Shown piece by piece: positions 15,900 to 57,463 of a stretch of DNA of 64,000 nt. The stretch's first letter is position 1, and each line of letters starts with the position of its first letter. The stretch is from Zychaea mexicana (lineage: Eukaryota; Mucoromycota; Mucoromycetes; Mucorales; Lichtheimiaceae): the NCBI RefSeq assembly GCF_025766255.1, contig NW_026516799.1:42390-106389 (forward strand), written 5' to 3'. The notes beneath the pieces were generated by a model that saw only the letters and a program-made list of their open reading frames with translations, was not told where the DNA came from and did no database searches. The position numbers were made by a program, and so were the translations under genes.

Positions 15900-17507
15900 C
15901 TAACACTGGGGGCAATTGTGGAGCCAGTCTTGAATGTCTTCCTTCATATTTGGCCACCACCAGCGCTTCTTAATGATATCGTACAGTGTAACTTTACCAG
16001 CATGCCCTAAACTAGTATGATAATGTTGTACAAGATCGGCGCGACGGGCAAACAACGCGAAACGAATTTCTTGAACCTCAGATCCAATCTTGACTTTGCG
16101 AAAAATTTGGTGTTTCCTGACCAAGAACTTATCACGGTATTTATTGAGGAGATCCTTGTATGTTGCTGGCCACTTGGATTCGGCAAAAATGTAAAACTTG
16201 GGCCAGTCAGATTCCTCAATAGCTTTCATGGCATACAAATATCCAGGCTCAGTTGGTGCTTCAGCAGGGGTATAATCGGGACCATCCCAGCGAGACAGCA
16301 GGTCAGGGACAATGTTTTCCTTTCCTTTCTTGTACTGAATCTCAAGGTCGTAGAGTTCCAGCTCAGCCATCCAGCGTGTGAGGCGTGGTGGTAGCAGCTT
16401 GTGACGAGAACGGAAATACACCAGTGGGTGATGGTCGGTGCGAACAACAAAGTTTCGGCCTTCAACAAAGCAGCGCCAGGTGCGTAGAGCATGCAATATT
16501 GCCAATAGTTCACGTTCTTGAGCAGGCATGTTGTGTTCGGCAGATGATAGTTTCTTTAACTCATATGCTATCGGATGCATTTTGCCATCCTCCCCTTCTT
16601 GGAGTAGTACCCCTCCAACAGAATAATCAGAACTATCCACCTCGATCACATAGGGTTTCACAGGGTCAGTAGTCATGCAGGCTTTGATTTCCTCGAAAGC
16701 GGTTTGGCAGTCAGGTGTCCACGTAATTGCTCGTTTCTTTGCTCTAGTGCCCTTCATCAAGTCAATCAAGCACGCCGTAATCGAACTAAACGCACGAATA
16801 AAACGACGGTAATGGGAGCAAAGACTAATGAACTGACGTACTTCTTGAACATTTTTTGGGACTGGCCATTCTTGAATTGCTTTGACCTTCGACACTGACG
16901 GCGAAATACCACTAGCAGAAACATAGAAACCAACGAACTCCAACTCGGTCTTGTAAAATTCGCACTTCTTCTTGTTTGCCACGAGTTTGGCATCTCGTAA
17001 CAGGCTAAGGACGGTGGCAACATCACGGTCGTGGTCCTCTTTGGTCTTGCTGAAAATCAGAACATTGTCTAAATATAGCAGACAGCATTTATCGATATAA
17101 TCACGTAGGACCCCATTGAGTACAGCTTGGAAAACAGACGGCGAATTACGAAGGCCAAATGGGAGCACAGTCCAGGCGAACGAACCATAACGCGTATTAA
17201 AAGCTGTCTTGGGAATGTCTTCTTCACGAATATGCACTTGGTGATATCCAGATTTTAGGTCAATGCTTGAAAAATAGCGGGCCTTTGACAAGCGTTCTAG
17301 ACATTCATCAATGCATGGTAGCGGGTGTGAGTTACGCTTGGTGACCTGGTTGATGGCACGATAGTTGACACAAAGACGCAGCGACCCGTCTTTTTTGCAG
17401 ACGGACAGGACTGGGGCACCCCAAGGCGAAGCAGTTGGACGGATCAGACCCAGAGTGAGCAACTTGTCAAGCTGTTTGCACAACTCATCGAGTTCAAGTG
17501 GACTCAT
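15900..17507 (-). pseudogene. Gypsy-1 reverse transcriptase, RNase H and integrase zinc domain
   Basis: An uninterrupted 535-codon frame. The RT part has [43 protein letters not shown] and YLDNVLIF. RNase H follows ([29 protein letters not shown]), then the integrase zinc domain ([10 protein letters not shown]...CPQC). The active-site YxDD reads YLDN; codon AAT at 17064-17066 in place of GAT would be a single G-to-A change. The frame is open but the enzyme is predicted to be inactive. TAG directly after CPQC cuts off the integrase. Confidence 0.92.
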
Positions 17508-18369: not shown

Positions 18370-18887
18370 TTAAGCTCGACGCACTTTGCCTTTTAAATCC
18401 TTGCGAGGCGGAAATGAACCAGAGCCAGGGTTCGAACTACACTTGCCTTGTGGTGGTGAGGGACAATCACGAGCGATATGGCCCTGACCATTGCAGTTAT
18501 AGCAACGGCGAGGGCGACGTTGTTGGCCATAGGTACTAGTGTAGTTATGACGGCTATCAATAGCATCCAACTCCATGGGGGTGGGTCCATCATAGGCAGC
18601 TAGTACGGCAATGGAGGATGACTGGGTGACCTGGTGACCATGGCCATTGGATGAAGGCCGGATGGGATCACGAATACCAGCAGTATACTTATGGACAGCC
18701 TCAAATGTCTCAGCAGCATTGTACGCAGCCACCAACAAACTAGGTTCCTGAAGCAACACCTATACACGTATGTCATAGGAAAGACCCTAGATAAACTCGT
18801 GAATGGCATCTTCTTCGAGTATACTAGACAAGTCAAGCATAGTATTCCAAAATTCAGTTACGTACTCACGAATGGTTCCAGTCTTAG
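18370..18887 (-). pseudogene. Gypsy-1 gag, 3' part with zinc knuckle
   Basis: Continues gag after the AT-rich insertion: TGTIREYVTEFWN, then an in-frame TAG, then a segment containing a CCHC knuckle (CYNCNGQGHIARDC, near 18500-18460) and a basic tail. Removing the 18888-23159 insertion and one TCTTAG copy joins this frame cleanly to the upstream gag half. Confidence 0.85.
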
Positions 18888-19438
18888 GGGATAAGTCGGT
18901 ATCAAAATGATTTCTAGAAATTTAAAGATATTTATATTAATGTAATATTTTTGAATTTTGTGTTAATAATTTTTTTACGTTAAAGTTTTTGTTATAATTA
19001 AAATATATAATATTCATATTTAAAAAGAATTAAAAACTTATACTTTATAATATAAATTGTTAACTATTTTTTTTTAATTTTAAATTTTAACTTTTATATT
19101 TTATAATATAATTTTTAAAACATTATAAGATTTTAAATTCATGTTTATACATTTATTAAAGATTTAAAACATAATTATATTAAACAAAATAATCAATAAA
19201 ATTATTACAATAAATTAAAAACTAATTAATATATAAATTCATTAATTCTGATTTTGTTAATTCATAAAGAAATAATTTTAATTTCGAAACCAAAAAAGAC
19301 ATAGTCTCCCCTCATAATTATTTTTATTTTATGTAGCATATATTTGAAAAGTTAATGAATAACGTCAGCTGTTATTGTAATAAACTTTTTATCGCCATAG
19401 CTAAATCTAATATTCCTCCATTATATATATATATATTT

Positions 19439-19804
19439 TTAATTTTTATTTTTTTTTATTTTTTTGATATTTATAGATTGTTTTCTCTCTTTTTTTTCTT
19501 TTTTTTTAGGTACATGTAGTTTACTATGTTGAGAACATAGAAAATCAGGTTTATTGTCACCAATATTTGTTCTTATTTTCCGATAACGTATATATCCTTC
19601 TTTTTTTCCTCTTTTATAAACATATGAATATATATTATTACTGCTATTGATATACCAAAAATAGTTTGTTTTTGTTTCTTCCAATTTTTCCTTTATGATA
19701 TTTTTCATTAGTTTTTGTTTTTCTTCTTTCAAATCACATAGAATTTCATCATCAAAATATTTATCCATAACTTGAGTCATGATATCTTTCATTGAGCTTA
19801 TCAT
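19439..19804 (-). pseudogene. Small AT-rich-element protein with partial CxxH zinc-like module
   Basis: A 121-codon open frame that begins upstream of the Harbinger insertion: removing it (19803-22975) extends the frame in phase to an ATG near 23020. The central part reads SYVYKRGKKEGYIRYRKI, followed by LCSQHSKLHVPKKK and a Lys-rich tail. A second decayed copy at 35.5 kb has Cys where this copy has Tyr and Arg. Together they suggest C-x-Y-x2-K-x5-G-x2-C...C-x2-H, probably zinc binding. Function unknown; perhaps DNA binding for transposition. Confidence 0.55.
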
Positions 19805-20062
19805 AGGTTGCTCTCATTTCACTCCGAACAGAGAACACCATACCCTAATATAGCAATGGCAAATACATTTTCCGTTCTCCTTCCAAAAGAGGGCTTCTCG
19901 GAGGCCTCCAATTTTGGTAGTGGCTTCTCCGATGGAAAGGCCTCCGTGGTGGCTCGCTCGGATCGATATAAAAGGAAACTGTCACTTTCATGAATAATAA
20001 AAGTATTGAAAGAAAAATACACCCTCTATTTTTCATCTATTTTATCTGCTTTTATCATAAAA

Positions 20063-21518
20063 ATGAACAATATTCCACCATCAGCTATTATTCGCCGCCC
20101 AACGCACAATCATCTTGAAGAAAAAAGACGTCGTCGAGCAGCATTCATCAAGCTCTTGACGCAACTTGTAGCACCCGCCATAGGAATGCTTCCTTCGGTC
20201 AATGCGAACATCGTCGCAGCTTACGCTGGTTCGCCGCATCATTTTCGAGCAGCCAAGATCCCAAGAATTCACAGCACGGAATATTGGACATTGACCCACT
20301 CGAATCTTCGCGATGACGACGGTCCTGGCAGCTATAAATATCATTACCGCATGCGCAAATCCATATTAGAATGGCTTGTCAATACTTTGTCTGTGCATCA
20401 GGAATTTGTGTCAGAGTCATCAAGAATGACACCAGTTTATATTCAAGTCTGCTGCATACTATGGCGTTTTACAAATACTCACATTGGATACAGAATGTTT
20501 GAGACGCAATTTGGCTTTTCTCAAGGATCGTACCACAACTTTACTGTGCGATTCATAAAAGCTATTTGCGACATCCATGGCTCCAAGATCAGGTGGCCAC
20601 GCTCTCCAGAAGAAGCCCGTGAAGCTTCCAACGCCTTTTCTTTGCCCTCCGGTTTACCTACCTCTCGAGATGCCTCAGCAAGGCTGCAAGGGGCGATTGG
20701 AGCTATGGATGGCAAGCTCGTGGTGATCCACAAACCAACGAAGCAAGGTCAATGGTACTTTGACCGCAAACTGCATCACTTGATAAACTTGCTTGCTGTA
20801 TGTGCTGCAGATGGGCGCTTTACTTTTATTGACGTGGGTCAATCAGGTACAGTAATCTATAAGAGATTTATTAATGTCTTGAACATACACGTTGCTAACT
20901 GCAACTGCATCACAAATATATGTTCACTAGGGCGAACTCACGACGCCCGCGCTTTCAATAACAGTGCGTTCAATACCAGACTGCTGAGTGATCCTGAACA
21001 ATGGTGTCCTAATGGAACATACATTCTTGTCGGTTAGTAGTCCTGTACTTTTGATGTTCTACAGCTTTGCTTATATTCTGCATTTGAACCTATTCATAGA
21101 TTCTGCTTTTCCTCTGCGGCCAACAATCATGACGCCATATCCTAGCTCATCAACTGATCCCGCGGAAAAGCGATTCAACAAAGTCCATTCTTCAATGCGA
21201 ATGGCTATTGAGCGAGCACTCAGTCGTCTTATTTCCCGGTAGAGGTTCATGCGACATTACATGTACCTCTTGGATCATACAAACCTGACGCTGGTGATTT
21301 ATGCCTGTTGCATACTCCATAATATCTGTATCGAGCAGCTCGATCCGCACTCTGACGAACTGTTTCCATTGAACACAGAAGAGGATGAACAAACCGGACG
21401 TATATCAATAATAGATACTGATAGACAGTCTAGTGCTAGAGAAGACAGTACGAGGTTGTTTGCACAAGGGCGTCAGAAACGCGATATGCTTAAAGAATCA
21501 TTGTCCTCAAATCAATAA
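20063..21518 (+). pseudogene. Harbinger-1 transposase, two exons, one internal stop
   Basis: Exon 1 is 20063-21032 and exon 2 is 21100-21518; the join encodes ILVDSAFPLRPTIMTPY, creating a catalytic Asp across the splice. Other motifs are GAIGAMDGKLVVIHKP (first D), YFDRKLHHLINLLAVC, GRTHDARAFNNSAF, and FNKVHSSMRMAIERALSRL (E region), the DDE_Tnp_4/HARBI1-like layout. TAG at 21240-21242 lies just after the E block, where Trp, Tyr or Gln would be plausible. An earlier in-frame ATG exists at 20006. Otherwise full length. Confidence 0.9.
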
Positions 21519-27387: not shown

Positions 27388-28908
27388 CTATCGAGCTGTG
27401 ATTCCAAGTGCTATCTTCAAGTACACTCGCATCATTTCGCCTAGGGTGATTTGACCTCTGTTACGTCTACTTGTGTCAACGAACTCATTACCTTCATCAT
27501 CATCACCCCAAAAGTCATCATCACCGGTCCGACGAAGCTCTCTTACATTGCTCATGTCTGCGTCTGGATTGCGGCGCCGTTGGAGGTCACCAATGACGCT
27601 CAAGTAAGAGCCGTCATCTTTCACGTTTTGCACAAAATTGTGCAGCAGACAACAAACAGCAATCCAGTTCATGCATCGCTTATAATCATGTTTGCTTCTG
27701 ATCATGATCGGTAGACATTTTAAGCTTTGCCATCTGTTCTTCAAAAACCCGATCGTACGTTCAACCTCCACTATACACAAAGTAGATCAAAAGAAAATGG
27801 CTCAACACACAAGAATACATGGACAAATTACAAATTCGTAATAATACAACGTACCTCGTACAGACGACAACTTTCGATTGAACTGAAGATTTTCCGGGAT
27901 CTGTCGTGCCTCCCCTTTATAGGGTGTGACAAGGCGCGGTGACAGAGGGTAAGCCACATCGCCAAGAATGTATTCAGATTCATCAAAGAATGAATCCAAA
28001 TTCTTTCCCATCATACTTTTACGGAAAGCGCGCAAGTCGTGTACCTTCCCTGTTTCACCAGCAGAGAAGTAACGGATCCGATCGTTGATATCACAAACGA
28101 TCTGCAGATTAAGTGCATATCTCTTCTTTCTCGTGAAGAATTGTTCGCCTTGCCAACTTGGCTTGTATTGCAACACAACATCAGTGCTGTCAACAATACC
28201 AATGCATTCTTTGAATGCGAGGTCTTTGATATCGCGAAGATCGGTCTTCAGTTGGCTGTGCTCGTCCTCATTAGGCCAGAATACGAATTCCTTGATATGC
28301 TTCAGTAATGCGTGAATTACCCTGTCTGTGAAGAGAGCAACTGTGCCCTTGCCGAAACCATATCTTGAAGCCACATCATCAAGATCGCCCGACAAGTGAC
28401 CGAATCGGTATAATGCGATTCCCAACTGAATTCGAACAGGTGTCTGTCGCATTTTCCTTTCGTTTTTGTTGAAGACGCGGTCATCCTTGATGAGATCGTA
28501 CAGTGCCTCAAACGTATTCCTGGTCATTCAAAATTCGCGTCGAAATGCGGCGTTGTCGCTCGTTGTAAACAAAAGTTCACGTAGGTCGACGGCTTTAGGT
28601 TTCCTTTTTCTTGATACCAAGTAACAGCTTGATAAGACCTTCTTGACAAATTCTTGGTCAAATTCCGTCAACTCGAGTTCTTCATCAACGAAGTCACCCA
28701 ACAATTCTTCGTCATTGAGAAGCGACATGTCAACTTCTTCATGAATGGGTATTGCTTCGTCCGAGATCAAACCCCATTTCCGGTCGAGATCGTTTAAGAA
28801 CTTATGCTGACCACACAGCATCTTGTCGGAGACCTTGCTAATGTTGACGAAGTGCCGTAAGACACGAGCTTTCTTGGTGAGGCGAATCTTCTTAGGCATA
28901 GTGGACAA
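27388..28908 (-). pseudogene. Harbinger-2 transposase, two exons, one stop
   Basis: Exons 28908-27855 and 27770-27388; splicing gives SSVRVEVERTIGFLKNRW with the catalytic Glu. Other blocks are ASRYGFGKGTVALFTDRVIH (HTH), KECIGIVDSTDVVLQYKP (first D), FFTRKKRYALNLQIVCDIND, GKVHDLRAFRKS, and YILGDVAYPLSPRLVTPY (second D). This is the DDE_Tnp_4/HARBI1 layout, typical length about 470 aa. The only lesion seen is TGA at 28528-28530, where CGA (Arg) is likely. The promoter region upstream is shared with the hAT gene at 58.3 kb. Confidence 0.88.
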
Positions 28909-29405: not shown

Positions 29406-29832
29406 TAATTATATAATATTTGATTCATCCGTGTGTGTGGTGTTCTCTCTACTGCACTCTAATGGTTACGAAGACGGCGGAGTGGGTTGAGTTGTCCGGA
29501 TCAATGTCAAAGTAGTGTGGTTTAGTTACCACTACAAGAAGCAAAGAAGGAGAAAACAAATCAAAGTGACAGAATTACTTATTTAGGCAACTTCACATAT
29601 TGAACTGCTTAGAACTGGGTCGTCAAAGTAAATTTTTCCTGGACCATTTTTATTGGTTTTAATTTTTCATCAGCGACACCTATAAATTTCCAGGTCCAAC
29701 CAACTTTGACAAGGCCCATTCCCACATCACCACACCTAACAGCTATGCACCTATCACCAGCAGTATGCCTCGCTCCAGCATTACCTATTAGTGCAAAGCT
29801 CCGTGCTTCAGAGCATGCTTTATGCATCTCTA
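29406..29832. other. Spacer with an unrecognised 78-codon frame
   Basis: The minus frame 29845-29609 contains the repeat shared with 24826-24875 and runs into E2, so its N-terminal codons belong to that element. I do not recognise a function. Confidence 0.4.
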
Positions 29833-31753
29833 GGGGATATACCAATACTTTTTGATTTTAATAAAATTTAATGATTGTTGTATATTTTATGATTATTATA
29901 AATCAATTTTAAACTCAATTACTTTTTTGTAAAAATTGAATTTTTATTTATTATATTAAGTAACCCTTAAAATATAAACATAATTATAAGTTTTTGACAT
30001 TTGTCTAAGGCTATAAGGTTCTTCCTGATTGCAGATAATACTGTTAAGAGACCTGTTTCATTGATATTATTGTTTATATTCTATTATCACTTATAAAAAA
30101 ATAGCTATTACTAATAATATGAAAGATCTAATGAAAATTTCAGATAATTGTGAAAATAATATAAATTTAGAAGCTGAAAAAATAATAAGCCAATATTGGG
30201 AATTCTTAAATGAAAATTGGAAAATTGTTAATTACAAATATAAACATCGTACTGAAATAAAAAAAATAAATAATATAGATAAAATTAAAAATGAATTAAA
30301 AAATAAGTTAGGATATACTGCAGTATTCTTTTTTTTAAATGTATTGTATTCAAATATTGAATATCCAGGACTATATAATGATATCGAAAAAGGTTTATTT
30401 TTACTATATCATTTAGTTTTAGGTAAATCGGGAAAAGATAATATAGAAAGATATCTACCTTATAGTTCAGTTTATGATTTTTATAAGAAATTTTGGATGT
30501 TTGAAGAAAATTATATTAGATTAAATAAAATTTTAAATAATTATTATAAAACCATGTTTTCATCTATCTTATTAAGATTATATAGTTCAAGAAAAAATAA
30601 TCCAGAATTATTTAAACATATTACTTTAATTATTGATGGACATGATTCTCGTATTCAATATATTGATACAGATATAAAAAAAGAAAGATTATATTCATAT
30701 AAATTAAAAAAGAGAGGTTTGCGTACATAGATTATTACTGATATTAATGATATGATTTTATTTATTTCTAATAGTGATTATTGCGCCGATAGTTCAGATA
30801 GGTCAATGTTTTTAAATATGAAGTTATATAAAAAAATACATAGTCATGATGTTTTAGCAATGGATGGAGGTTATATATTATTTATTAATAAATTTATTGA
30901 CTTAGCTAAAACAAAAGACATTGAATTTTCAAATAATAATTTTGTATTTCCAATTTGTAAAGAAAATAAAGTTAATCTAACAGAACCAGAAAAACATTTT
31001 AATAATGTATTTGGTAGTTTCCGTTCTAAAGTAGAAAATCAATTCGCTGGAATAGGTAATAAATTCAAAAGATTTAATAATAATAGTGCTGTAGTAAGAA
31101 TGAATAAGATTAAATTTTATACTTTACAATTTAAGGTTGCTAGTTTACTTAAAAATATACAAAAATTTGCTGAATCATTTAATGTTCCTATTTTACCTCA
31201 TCATAAACTTTGGGAAACTAATTGTTTTGAATTCCCCTCTTAAAAAAAATTAATAGATATAGTAATTACAAATGAAGAAATAAATAAACAAAAGTTAAAT
31301 GAAATGATAAATATACAAGATGAATTATTAGCTCTAAATATAGGTAATAATAATATAAATAATGAATTTAGTGATGATGAAATACAAGAGAATCAAAATA
31401 TTAATGATTCAAGTGAAGATGATATTCCTAAATTTAATGAAAAAAAAAAGAAAACATAAGAATAAAGTAAAACAATCAATAAAAACTTATGAAGTTGGAA
31501 ATATAATAGATCATAAATATGAAAATAATAAGTATTTATTCTTGGTTAAATAGAAATATTATGATGAAAATGAAAATACATGGATTCCTTATAATAATTC
31601 TAATGAGAAAGAAATAATTAATAAATATTTAGATCAAAGTCATATACAAATATAATAAAATATAAAATAATAGTCATAATAATAATTAAATAAAGAATGA
31701 TTTTCATAAAAACTAAAAATGTTTAATAATCTAATGATTCTGATATACTGCCC
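29833..31753 (+). mobile_element. AT-rich element E2 encoding a DDE transposase-chromodomain fusion
   Basis: About 1.92 kb of AT-rich DNA. The left end GGGGATATACCAATAC and the right end, reverse-complemented, GGGCAGTATATCAGAATC are imperfect inverted repeats flanked by TA (29831-29832 and 31754-31755). The left terminus resembles the E1 terminus preceded by TA (GGGGATAAGTCGGTAT). The duplication is short and could be chance. Confidence 0.6.
30119..31655 (+). pseudogene. DDE transposase fused to a C-terminal chromodomain (E2)
   Basis: The frame opens at ATG 30119 and reads to 31655 with stops at 30728, 31241 and 31551 and one frameshift near 31440-31460. Domains: a Lys/Asn-rich N-terminal region (about residues 1-160); a catalytic core with ITLIIDGHDSRIQY (first D), SYKLKKRGLRT, FISNSDYCADSSD, LAMDGGYILF (second D) and HFNNVFGSFRSKVENQF (E), like IS5/DDE_Tnp_4 enzymes; LQFKVASLLKNIQKF; an acidic linker; and a chromodomain-like end YEVGNIIDHKYENNKYLFLV followed by TAG where TGG is expected (the other copy has VKWKDYDE). 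A second copy at 56.5 kb has the same fusion. Confidence 0.8.
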
Positions 31754-31967
31754 TAATCAACTCCCTTATAGAGTCCACATTAAGCCGCCCCTCCCCCAAT
31801 TTTCCTCAAAGCCAGCAGAGTGGCCTCCACATTAACAAGAGCGGCCTACAACAACAGCTGAGGGACTTTGTGCTTTTTTTATTAAATAGTGTTGGCATTC
31901 AATTATTAATGGCAGTAGGCAGATGGAAAAAAGACAGTAACATAAAAAGTAAGTTTTTATTATATGT

Positions 31968-33381
31968 AGGGTTCCGTAAAAGACGATTCCTACCGATTCT
32001 TTGAGGGAATCGAATCGGTATCGTCCAAGTGAGGAATTGAATCAAATCGTCTTCGTAAGAATTGGTAGAATCGAAGAATCGAATTGGATATATCATATAA
32101 AAGAGAAAAAAAATCTGTATCCTCGATTATAGTCAAAATGTAGCTAAGTATAATAATAAATATGAACGCTACTATATTTAGAAAGAAAGAAGATATCAAT
32201 GCTTGGTAGAAATAGTAAGCTCAAATAAGCAATACATAAACTACAGTATTTCCAAAGAGCTGTAACATTCCACTATTAAAGTAATAATCTGCATTTCAAA
32301 ATTAAAAGGATGGATAGTATTTAGAGTAAGATATAGTTTTTTAAGTGTAGGGAAAAATACTACAACCCGTATTATGTATGGCTGCACATGTGCGTGCATT
32401 TTATGTCTGATAGAAGGCAAGGGAGGAAGCCAATAACAGAAATGTACCATGCTCAAATTGTGCAAACTTAATTAACGGGTCAATTGAAAATGGCGACATA
32501 AATCTCATAGTAGTACGTTATAAATGAGCAGTGTAATGAGTGGCAAGGCATAGTACAGTATGAAAAAAAATGCTGTAAGTGGTGACGAACTGTGAAGCAA
32601 TGATATTATATTATATTGAAGGAATTGAACTACAACCGGTAGTACACACAGCTACTATGTCTCTACGCATGTATAGTGTCTTATGAAAGGCAGGGTGAAT
32701 GAGTAAGATAATTCTCTTAACGGCCCTAATTACGCAATCTTAGATGGATTTCACAATCTTGATCCAAATGACTGAGAAGCTACGCTAAATCTAGTGAAGT
32801 AGTATGTCATAGAGAAAAATGCATTGTAAGTAGCATTGTAGGGAAGAAGTAATGATGTGCGTCACAGTTACTTCAACACCATCCAAATGCTGCTTCTCAC
32901 AGAACCGCCTCTTGTTCCCCCATACCCATAATCTATTGAAGCCAGAGTCAATTCAAAGGTTAATGCTTCTGCATTCATGGCTCTCTTTTGATTTCGGTAT
33001 TTAGAATAGCATTTTGTCTCTTCTTTTTTCCTCTCTTCCCCTCTATACTTTTTTCTTTTTGCACCATTTTCTCTTTGTTTCTTGTCCCCTTCCTTTCATA
33101 TATTATTTGGTAAAAATGAAAACACAACTTAAGTTTGGAGGTCACCTTTAAAGAAAGGAACTAGTTTCAGCTGTATTTTAGCGAAATATAAATAAATGTT
33201 CTACATTATGTAAATTAATGAAATCATAGAATATAGAAAAGGACTGATTCTTCGATTCTATGCAACCAAAGCCGAGACGATTCTAAGACGATTCTGAGAC
33301 GATTCTTGGTCGGAATCGTCCTGGGTTTTGATGACTTTAATTCGATTCGATTCCGATTCTTCGATTCTGATGTGGATCCCT
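31968..33381. mobile_element. Non-autonomous element C, GAATCG-rich ends
   Basis: Ends AGGGTTCC... (left) and AGGGATCCACATCAGAATCG... (right, reverse complement), with arrays of GAATCG/CGATTC near both ends. The internal sequence (for example GTAGTACACACAGCTACTAT) matches elements A and B. No ORF. It is more diverged than A and B. Flanks ACATAT... on both sides suggest a degraded duplication. It cuts a Harbinger-like fragment. Confidence 0.65.
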
Positions 33382-35469: not shown

Positions 35470-35950
35470 TTGTTTTAGAATTTGATTCTTACCTTGATAA
35501 AAAAATTATTGAAAAATTTTATAATAAAATTAGTAGAAAGATTAATAATATATTTTATAATGATTTTTTTATAATGAAAACATAGCAAAGGATTATTGTA
35601 CATATAAGCATAAAAATAGAAAAAATGAAGGCTATCTTTGTTACTAGAAAATAAATACTAATCTTCCTGATATCAAAAAAGTTTCTTATGTATTAGACAT
35701 TCTATAAAGCATATACCTAAAAAAAGAAGAAAAATATATTAAAGGTTCACTTGAACATAATGTTCAACAAAATATTAATATTTTGCTAGATGAACCTAAT
35801 ATACAGAAAAATAATATAGAAATAAAACTTTTTAGAAAATCTAAAGAAATTAGAAAAATAAAGAAAAATAAAAAGTAAAAAGCTATTTATATTAGAAATG
35901 TTAGGCAATTAGATCTAAAGAGAATCATCAATAAATTATTAATAAAATAA
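35470..35950 (+). pseudogene. AT-rich-element zinc-module protein, copy 2
   Basis: The frame through 35605-35720 reads DYCTYKHKNRKNEGYLCY, then TAG, KINTNLPDIKK, and later KKEEKY with a Lys-rich tail. It aligns with the 19.4-kb copy over the block containing EGY-x2-Y-KI-TN. Here both early Cys are kept but the later CxxH is lost, and three stops are present. It shows that the small protein belongs to a dispersed AT-rich family. Confidence 0.5.
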
Positions 35951-54685: not shown

Positions 54686-56400
54686 TTAGTAGACGATGTT
54701 GGTGGTTTGTAGTGGTCCAGACCCTGAGAGATCGATGGCAATGCGAAGTTTGTTAGGTTCAGTTGCCCGAGATAGCGCAACATATAGTTGGCTATAAGCA
54801 AAGACATCTTCTACAAGGCGGACACCGACATATTGCAGGGTTTGCCCTTGCGCTTTGTGGATGGTCATAGCAAAGGCAGGGTGGACAGGGAATTGGCGGC
54901 GGCAGAGGATGAAGGGATAATCTCCTTCCATTGTACATATATAGATATATGGAAGGAAAAATTCCAGGCCACGATGCCGTTAGTCAATTCTTTTCACGGC
55001 AATACACCGATCAAGAAGCCTTGTCACGAATAATTTTGTGCCATTGCATAGGCCGGCGTCGGGATCCAAGTTGCGCATGAGCACTACAGGTATGCCAGGC
55101 TTGAGCTATAACGTATGGCTAGGTATGCCATTAGTGCTGAGATTGTTTAAAAACTCGACGGGATAGTTAACCACTGCTGCTTCTGGGTCATCAGTGTCTA
55201 TGATATGGTCATTGGCAGCATAATCGCGCCCTTCACCTGGGAAAATACCGTAGGCTGCCTCGTTAATCGCATCGCATCGACGTCGACGTTTTTTGCTGCC
55301 AATATGGCACGAGCGTTGAAATCTTCAGGTTGCGGCTGTGGATTGCATATGCTGGGATATATAGTGTCTATAAGACCCATGGTGTCTGCTGCATCCATAC
55401 GCCATTCCTGAGAAATTTCTACGCTTTCTGTATATGGAGCACGTCCATCGCCAATGGCAAGAAGTGTCTCAGCAAATGCGGGAGCAGCAGGACCAGTGTG
55501 ACGTACACGCATGTTGATAGTCAAATGCAATACTTGAGCATCACTCCAAAAAGAAGCAGAACGGATGCAATCACCAACAATTTCGGACCGAGTCCCTTTC
55601 TTGACGACGGGCAGCAACTGGTGAAAATCACCACCAAAAACGACAACTTTTCTACCAAAAGCAACATTGCACAGGCAAGGGTCAACGGCACCCATGACAT
55701 CACGAAGTGACCTGTCAACAGCTTCGAAATTCCATTTGCTGCACATAACAGCTTCATCCCAAATGATAAGAGAGGTACTCTGTATCAAGTGTGCATGAGG
55801 ACCACTGAGACGAACATTGCAGGAAGTGGACGCGTCTGCATTCAATGGAATCTCGAAGTGGCTATGTACAGTGCGCCTGCTGGGAAGCAGGATTGTAGCA
55901 ATGCTGGAAGAAGCAATAGGCAGTGCAATCATGTCGCGGGAGCGCGTATGGCTCAGAAGCGTCTTGAACAGCTGAGACTTGCCAGTTCCTCCAGGTTCAT
56001 TCACAAAAAAAACGCATGGCTTATAATCGTCGTCAGGTCAGCTGATGGCAGTAGATGGTGTCAAAGGCGTGTCGTTGATCGTTGTTTAATGTTGGCAACA
56101 GCGTCTGAAGAAGATGTCGCTGCTCTTCCTGATCGTACTCACACCATTCGACAATCTCGAGTGCTTCCAAAGGAGGCAACAGATCAAGTTCAGTAACAAA
56201 CTCTTGAGGGAGAGAAGGGATTCTGACAGACGATGACTGGTTGCTTGTAAACGTGACTCGATGTCACCAAGTGCTCTTTGGTAAACCTGGTCTAGTTGAT
56301 CGGGTGTCAGTTTAGCCTCATTTGGCACAGAGAGCGACCTACGCATCTCAAAAAAGTAGTCGTTGGCCATTCGATCGCGATAGGTGTTTCATAAGGACAG
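54686..56400 (-). pseudogene. Helitron PIF1-like helicase domain (partial)
   Basis: From the 5' side: EYDQEEQRHLLQ..., a shift, then NEPGGTGKSQLFKTLL (Walker A), SLIIWDEAVMCSKW (Walker B), VVVFGGDFHQLLPVV, LHLTINMRVRH, and, across a stop and frameshifts, the GLCNGTKLFV block and RRQFPVHPAFAMTIHKAQGQ...YVALSRAT. This is the Pif1-like helicase of Helitron Rep-Hel proteins. The HUH Rep domain is absent: the sequence is cut near 56431 by the chromodomain element. Confidence 0.85.
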
Positions 56401-56430: not shown

Positions 56431-57463
56431 GGGAACTAATCATTAAATATAGATTTATATTACTAGTATTAATTTTGAAATTATTTATTAATTAAATATA
56501 ATTTATAAAACATTTAATTTAATATTTAAAATCTGATATTATTTTTTATAAACTATTTTATAATTAAATCTTTTTCGTTAAAGTCTTTTTCATTAACCCA
56601 GAAATTTTGAGATTCATCATAATCCTTCCACTTTACTAAAAATATGTAATCATTATCATTTAATTTATGTTCTAATATGTTTTCTATTTCATAAAAGTTG
56701 TTATTTTTATTTATATCTCTAATTAAATTTATATTTATTCTTCTAGCACTTTTTCCTTTTTTTCTCTTTTTCTTATTTATATTTTTATATTCGGGAAAAT
56801 CAATTTCTTCTATTTCATTATTATAATTATTACTATCAATTATATTTTCAGTATTTTCTAAATTTTCATTATCTATTATCATTTCATTATTATTTATATC
56901 TAAATCATCAATTTTTTTTTGTATTTCTGATATATATTTTATTTTATCTAATTGTGTTATTTCATTATTTAATACTATATCAATTAATTTATTATCTGTA
57001 GGAAACTCAAAATTGTTTTCTATCCTTAACTTATGATGATCTTGTGTTATAATATTAAATGTTTCTGTAAATATTTTTATATTTTTTAAAAGAAATGCTA
57101 CTTTCATTTGTAAATTAATATATTTATAATCATCTGTTTTTAAAGTAGAATTATTATTTGAAAATCTTTTAAATGTATTTCCTAATTCACAAAATTGATT
57201 TTCTATACTTGACCTAAAAGAACCAAATACATCATTATAATGCTTTTCTTATTTATTTAAATTTTCATTAGGCTCTTTCCTAATTGGATAAAAGAAATTA
57301 TAATCATTTAGTTCTATATTTTTATTTTTACACAATTTTTCAAGTTGATTTATAAATAATGTATAACCGCCATCAATAGCAATAACATCCCTTTTATTAA
57401 TTTTATTATAAATTTTCATATTTAGAAACATACCTCCATCACTACTCACACCACATAATTCAC
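56431..57463 (-). pseudogene. Second DDE transposase-chromodomain copy (C-terminal half)
   Basis: Frames 57449-57249 and 57107-56553 cover MFLNMKIYNKINKRDVIAID, GGYTLFINQLEKL (second D), FGSFRSSIENQF (E), MKVAFLLKNIKIFTETFNI, an Asn/Glu-rich linker, a basic patch (NKKKRKKGKSARR) and a complete chromodomain-like end YEIENILEHKLNDNDYIFLV plus KWKDYDESQNFWV, with the aromatic residues expected of a methyl-lysine cage. A hAT element splits the gene at 57464; the flank beyond it (61003) restores VSDSELCGVSSDGG in frame. The N-terminal half is not found. Confidence 0.75.

Follow-up and report, generated by a model that had tools for sequence, protein, structure and literature searches.

A DDE_Tnp_4 transposase with a predicted HP1-like chromodomain at its C-terminus in DNA transposons of Zychaea mexicana and related fungi

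Two transposon copies in Zychaea mexicana raise the question whether a cut-and-paste transposase can carry its own chromatin reader, and whether such a reader would steer insertion. Both copies lie in the window, a stretch of 64,000 nucleotides of contig NW_026516799.1 (GC 0.385), taken from a genome of 50.3 Mb in 305 contigs. The fusion of a DDE_Tnp_4 transposase with a C-terminal chromodomain is real, and in intact copies it lies in one open frame. It seems rather probable to us that the elements form an IS5/PHIS-type (DDE_Tnp_4) cut-and-paste lineage of Mucoromycota and relatives, in which an HP1-like tail would tether the transposase to silent chromatin.

Copy 1 is complete and decayed, copy 2 is truncated at its 5' end and belongs to a different subfamily (Table 1). 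Copy 1 lies in a region of GC 0.226 (30001-32000) and is a pseudogene with in-frame stops at 30728-30730 (TAG), 31241-31243 (TAA) and 31551-31553 (TAG) and a frame change in an A-run. For its piece 30731-31240 a Pfam match to DDE_Tnp_4 was obtained (E 2.1e-7). The chromodomain of copy 1 by itself stays below the Pfam cut-off (E 0.16, part of the domain), but was located by tblastn with intact relatives. Copy 2 has lost the N-terminal half including the first catalytic D by truncation. Its core piece gave no Pfam match, but is matched by intact relatives in tblastn. The chromodomain of copy 2 exceeds the curated Pfam cut-off (E 4.4e-8) and contains the WKDYDE and FW residues that the initial annotation had picked out in this copy. 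That annotation had read both copies as a DDE core followed by a chromodomain; the Pfam and tblastn matches support this, and the ends of copy 1 agree with the extent given there.

For copy 1 the target duplication (CTA) is less well supported than the duplications of other copies, because the right flank begins at the edge of another repeat. No empty site was found for this copy (0 of 20 matches span the junction). In a general scan for inverted repeats in copy 1 the best 25 of 266 pairs were AT-rich and none of them lay at the element ends. The repeat that starts at 31753 occurs in several copies, some of them inverted pairs a few kb apart. Elsewhere in the window two further DDE_Tnp_4 transposase fragments (20006-21034 and 27805-28527), neither with a Chromo match, a PIF1 helicase (55201-56004), ORFs with DUF659 and hAT dimerisation domains (59-61 kb) and a DDE_Tnp_1_7 match (47 kb) were seen.

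Table 1 Features of the transposon family in the window and intact copies in the same genome
Feature	Position	Strand	Basis
Second-gene relic, 121 aa open, in AT-rich stretch beside Ty3-type sequence	19439..19804	-	tblastn, ORF, alignment
Copy 1, left 3-bp target duplication CTA	29830..29832	.	sequence and duplication tally
Copy 1, complete decayed element, 1920 bp, ends GGGGATATACC...GATATACTGCC	29833..31752	+	ends by alignment with other copies
Copy 1, N-terminal part of transposase, first catalytic D codon 30635-30637, ends in in-frame TAG	30119..30730	+	alignment of homologues
Copy 1, remaining DDE_Tnp_4 core, second D 30863-30865, E 31034-31036, ends in in-frame TAA	30731..31243	+	Pfam
Copy 1, linker, acidic then basic, frame change in A-run near 31440-31450	31244..31484	+	
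Copy 1, broken chromodomain with TAG inside	31485..31652	+	tblastn with intact relatives
Copy 1, right 3-bp target duplication CTA, flank adjoins edge of another repeat	31753..31755	.	
Decayed second-gene relic in AT-rich stretch	about 35564..35803	+	tblastn E 8.5e-6 and 3.0e-5
Copy 2, 5'-truncated element, second subfamily	56431..57463	-	
Copy 2, open frame, 184 aa: core end, linker, chromodomain	56553..57107	-	Pfam Chromo
Copy 2, chromodomain (WKDYDE, FW)	56562..56693	-	Pfam residues 139-179; tblastn to 56562
Copy 2, core part with second D (IDGGY), in-frame TAA 57249-57251	57249..57463	-	tblastn to intact relatives
Intact-ORF copies L059, L055, L019, L016 (protein identical to L015), L020, L021	same genome		

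In six different copies of the same genome a single uninterrupted ORF of 506-541 amino acids runs from the start to the chromodomain, with the DDE_Tnp_4 core, a linker and the C-terminal chromodomain in this order. A further ORF of 507 amino acids (L043) ends within the chromodomain, and L082, a member of a third group, has an ORF of 494 amino acids including the chromodomain. DDE_Tnp_4 and Chromo both scored above the Pfam cut-offs in all seven copies scanned (the six intact ones and L043; L082 was outside the scan), with the Chromo profile matched over part of its length only in L055 and L016. A match to rve was found in none of these seven ORFs up to E 0.1. GC is very low in the six intact ORFs (0.20-0.25; third positions 0.10-0.17) compared with the GC of the window given above. 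The catalytic residues proposed in the initial annotation (IIDGHD, MDGGY and the FGSFRS block) held in the alignment: 42 of 42 homologues show no change at the D of DGHD, the D of DGGY and the E that closely follows FGSFRS. These were full-length members chosen for having both domains, so the presence of both Pfam domains in all 42 is by construction. In the intact copies the chromodomain is significant and shares one frame with the transposase, as that annotation had held.

At least 197 loci of the family were counted in the same genome by searches with the core and the C-terminal part, matches being merged within 3 kb; the underlying lists comprise at least 150 matches each and hold the best-scoring matches, no random sample. 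A protein search, which reaches relatives sharing short exact words, gave 139 homologues, the best 120 of which reach down to about 35% identity. Among the matches listed, the hosts are Circinella minor, Lichtheimia corymbifera, Mucor hiemalis, Rhizomucor pusillus, Apophysomyces, Rhizopus microsporus, Rhizopus delemar, Pilobolus umbonatus, Zychaea mexicana, Mortierella and Haplosporangium. The taxonomy of four hosts was checked: three are Mucoromycota, and Haplosporangium belongs to Mortierellomycota. The remaining named hosts we take to be mucoralean or mortierellalean fungi. Most homologues sit on short contigs, which are probably metagenomic. On viral contigs no relatives were found.

The family is a cut-and-paste element with 3-bp target duplications. 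The collection of genomic copies proposed with the initial annotation allowed the ends to be rebuilt. With ends set per subfamily, 21 of the 25 complete copies are flanked by an exact 3-bp duplication; at shifted sites a 3-bp match occurred in 37 of 2250 cases (1.6%). Other lengths of 1, 2, 4, 5 and 6 bp fitted 15, 2, 1, 0 and 0 of the 25 copies, the 1-bp matches being frequent because many 3-bp repeats have identical first and last bases. End offsets were chosen after viewing the flanks, with one choice per subfamily for all its members (10 subfamilies). L046 was dropped since it shares its insertion with L045 (99.8% duplication), as were L048 and L017, which have eroded end bases and non-matching flanks; counting the latter two gives 21 of 27. 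Copies without one recognisable end were left uncounted, among others L010-L012, L021, L034, L036, L041, L049-L052, L055, L058 and copy 2 of the window. The 25 complete copies have lengths of 1.8-2.6 kb; their first base is G or A, their last mostly C, and they have no LTR-like ends. G-rich termini are conserved across the family. Copies are up to 99% alike, and recent activity is thus indicated.

A second gene was detected in part of the family. It is an ORF of 145-177 amino acids downstream of the transposase on the opposite strand, and hence convergent, in L019, L037, L014, L020 and L032. It was present in 5 of 5 tested elements of the clade of copy 1 and in 0 of 12 of the clade of copy 2; single-gene elements account for 12 of the 17 examined. 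Copy 1 itself has no second gene according to tblastn. The conserved core of the protein, CT..HKRGKK.G.MC.RK..TN....D.LC..HSK.H.PKK, has a Cys/His pattern that suggests zinc binding. No convincing match to its fold was obtained in Pfam or PDB, and neither Myb/SANT nor YqaJ was detected by Pfam. The genome holds at least 137 merged copies of this gene; among the matches listed, 54 sit downstream of a transposase and converge with it, 12 have a transposase nearby but are arranged differently, and for 71 no listed transposase lies within 3 kb. Seven homologues of the protein were found in a search. Two of them lie on contigs equal in size to those of transposases, P0155 with P0041 (9425 bp) and P0159 with P0023 (5420 bp), so that linkage is suggested. 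Five copies are upstream of and divergent from the transposase (e.g. C113:510507, C104:42035 and C16:64050), as if they were either another arrangement or nested insertions. In the window, the relic on the minus strand sits in an AT-rich stretch (18910-19810) in or beside Ty3-type sequence, which shows RVT_1, RNaseH and an integrase zinc domain (15903-17507) and, by eye, an ORF with a CCHC knuckle (18370-18759).

The C-terminal domain is, judged from its sequence, an HP1-like chromodomain with a methyl-lysine cage. In a profile comparison with solved structures HP1/CBX5 came first (E 5.8e-14), followed by HP1, Swi6, CDY and MPP8, with Polycomb lower (1.2e-6). The full set of three cage aromatics is found in 68 of 72 chromodomains, which together with the Pfam Chromo matches points to the HP1 class and supports the chromodomain reading of the initial annotation. 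Two deep groups of these chromodomains are on average 28% alike, and the first group is 31% alike to HP1. The best Chromo matches of the same genome (L001-L008) differ in chromodomain sequence from the transposon family.

Among 117 proteins with a near-full core, including six from the genome of the window, the chromodomain was present in 72 (at least 20 bits; 42 of these also built the counting profile) and absent in 45 (at most 2.4 bits; some of these are short, truncated or frameshifted predictions). In a midpoint-rooted tree of the core only (113 rows) the deepest split separates two groups that both include proteins with a chromodomain. A clade of 11 rows including Mortierellales proteins has no chromodomain (support 100). 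In a group of 28 rows (support 100) 22 are without and six with the domain; the 22 fall into several subclades, the largest with 11 rows (support 99). Presence and absence change at least nine times on well-supported branches, partly owing to truncated rows. In the same genome, two of four relatives examined out of 95 matches (L079 and L080) have no chromodomain. We read the tree of the core as early presence of the chromodomain and repeated loss. Because a tree of the chromodomain only shows no resolved branching, the pattern may also reflect repeated gain. As two supported clades manage without it, the domain is dispensable.

In the proposed mechanism the transposase would excise the element and reinsert it with a 3-bp stagger. 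The chromodomain would bind methylated histone H3, most likely K9me2/3, and once bound it would anchor the complex of transposase and DNA in silent chromatin. A new copy placed there would do little harm and would hence be tolerated. Such steering by the chromodomain is plausible by analogy.

Steering to methyl-lysine chromatin, as put forward in the initial annotation, was examined by comparing the positions of the family loci with those of DDE_3 and hAT elements, which have no chromodomain; all lists hold best-scoring matches, and kinase pieces adjoining an entered match were omitted. Among the matches listed, an integrase-core match is found at a distance of up to 10 kb from 20 of 197 family loci, 14 of 148 DDE_3 and 9 of 82 hAT elements, and a kinase match at the same distance from 1 of 197, 2 of 148 and 0 of 82, respectively. 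Random expectation, by simple arithmetic with contig ends ignored, is about 5% for integrase cores and about 4.5% for kinases. In 12 comparisons (10, 20 and 50 kb; Fisher) the family did not differ from DDE_3 or hAT (p 0.24 to 1). All three kinds of element tend to lie near repeats rather than genes, and selection is sufficient to account for this. Since the controls show the same distances, position carries no signal specific to the chromodomain, and targeting of this kind was not seen. The targeting idea rests on domain identity and the analogy to chromoviruses, not on position.

These positions fit a different role, in which the chromodomain functions without choosing the site: it would let the transposase find and act on the element's own silenced donor copies, or would retain the transposase on chromatin and limit its dose. 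The domain is conserved yet dispensable in two clades, as a regulatory add-on would be. This role is nevertheless less likely than tethering in our view, as the chromodomain of Ty3 chromoviruses steers integration to heterochromatin according to the available text of PMC12477314.

A separate observation concerns the DDE_3 (Tc1/mariner-type) elements. Many of their matches are inverted pairs of equal or nearly equal score, 2-15 kb apart in the same genome (e.g. G000:C240:743302 and 747469; C14:63333 and 66925; C147:23129 and 27078; C305:27344 and 30131). They look as if the gene were part of long inverted repeats at the termini of a larger element.

The relation to known transposons was considered with regard to the PHIS superfamily, whose members are described in the available part of PMC10045372 as making target duplications of 1-4 bp or none. 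The family resembles PHIS elements (PIF/Harbinger, Pangu, NuwaI/II, ISL2EU, Spy; bacterial IS5) in its DDE_Tnp_4 core (above the Pfam cut-off in 7 of 7 copies) with invariant D, D and E, G-rich termini and short duplication. The convergent second gene of one clade resembles that of the tail-to-tail Harbingers of Ectocarpus, as far as the available text of PMC12477816 describes these. With such features an ordinary PIF/Harbinger or Pangu element might be supposed, but this is improbable. The duplication motifs of the PHIS groups in the accessible part of PMC4482050 are TWA, ANT, CWG, TNA and AT. Of the 21 duplications found here 10 are TAT or ATA. TWA, expected for PIF/Harbinger, occurs in 0 of 21, ANT, expected for Pangu, in 5 of 21, and CWG and TNA of NuwaI/NuwaII in 0 of 21 each. 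Myb/SANT, which characterizes the second ORF of PIF/Harbinger, was found in neither protein; the second gene itself is absent in the single-gene versions of the copy 2 clade. Myb, a feature of NuwaI/NuwaII, is likewise missing. Pangu has a transposase without other domains and a motif-less second ORF; here the transposase carries a chromodomain, and such an ORF occurs in one clade only. ISL2EU is defined by 2-bp AT duplications, THAP and YqaJ; the duplications here have 3 bp, YqaJ is absent from the second protein, and no THAP was detected at E 0.001 in 42 members. Spy makes no duplication, unlike the elements described here. By the published descriptions, as available to us, the duplication motif and the partner gene speak against membership in a named PHIS subgroup, which was therefore rejected. 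We regard the family as a novel form of PHIS-type DNA transposon that may constitute a group of its own.

The protein shares its layout with the integrases of Ty3/Gypsy chromoviruses, a DDE recombinase with an HP1-like chromodomain at the C-terminus, presumably with the same use. Those, however, are rve-type integrases of LTR retrotransposons, while the present elements are DNA transposons with DDE_Tnp_4, without an rve match or LTR-like ends and of the short length given above. Mavericks/Polintons are much larger elements with an integrase-type recombinase. They share with the family an integrase with a chromodomain in a DNA element (available text of PMC10799480). Chromatin-related cargo is known in related elements, since HarbingerS with a SET histone methyltransferase and fungal DNA transposons with TET have been described (PMC12730594, in part available). 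Such elements, which belong to the same or to other superfamilies, carry a gene related to chromatin or DNA marks, as the present family does, but theirs are writers or erasers of marks, and no reader fused to the transposase is mentioned in the accessible part of that paper. As transposable sources of fungal chromodomains, Mavericks, chromoviruses and specific retrotransposons are named in the available passages of PMC10799480. The chromodomain passages available from PMC12477816, PMC3441728, PMC7998251, PMC4112212 and PMC5576322 concern Gypsy elements, and the accessible part of PMC6416283 contains nothing relevant. In the literature searched, seen partly in excerpt and with most subscription journals outside it, no published description of a chromodomain fused to a PHIS-type transposase was found, in agreement with the initial annotation, which knew of no common cut-and-paste family with this design.

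A survey of fungal cut-and-paste transposons is reportedly that of Muszewska 2017.

Purifying selection on the chromodomain was shown with 21 pairs of seven ORFs from the genome itself. Values of dN/dS were 0.11-0.51 for the core, 0.19-0.83 for the chromodomain and 0.29-1.54 for the linker, and in 18 of 21 pairs the chromodomain had a lower value than the linker; the pairs are non-independent and many dS values are close to saturation. A chromodomain that merely hitch-hikes as a fusion, with no function in transposition, would agree with its absence from 45 of the 117 proteins, some of which are truncated predictions. We regard this as quite improbable, as the cage is retained in 68 of 72 domains, dN/dS is below 1 and mostly under the linker value, and the domain is found in divergent members at 35-40% identity. 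An error of annotation or assembly that joined two genes can be dismissed as the source of the fusion, even though both window copies are broken, because six different uninterrupted ORFs of the same genome and homologues elsewhere carry both Pfam domains.

For the lineage with a tethering HP1-like tail, we put forward a more specific version tentatively: independent of chromoviruses, a reader borne by the transposase would steer insertion into H3K9-methylated chromatin, at least two reader-less clades would serve as a natural experiment, and one clade would have a new partner protein resembling zinc-binding ones. For an element demonstrably mobile and with a conserved reader, a targeting role is a good hypothesis by analogy.

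In other fungi the homologues, where named, bear machine names such as 'Chromo domain-containing' or 'DDE Tnp4 domain-containing protein'. Because the family is large here and its homologues have machine names only, chromodomains of transposons may pass for host chromatin genes. The findings touch the old question how DNA transposons survive without damage to the host. A DNA transposon whose transposase carries a chromatin reader would parallel the chromovirus strategy by convergence, and related clades with and without the chromodomain make the question of targeting directly testable.
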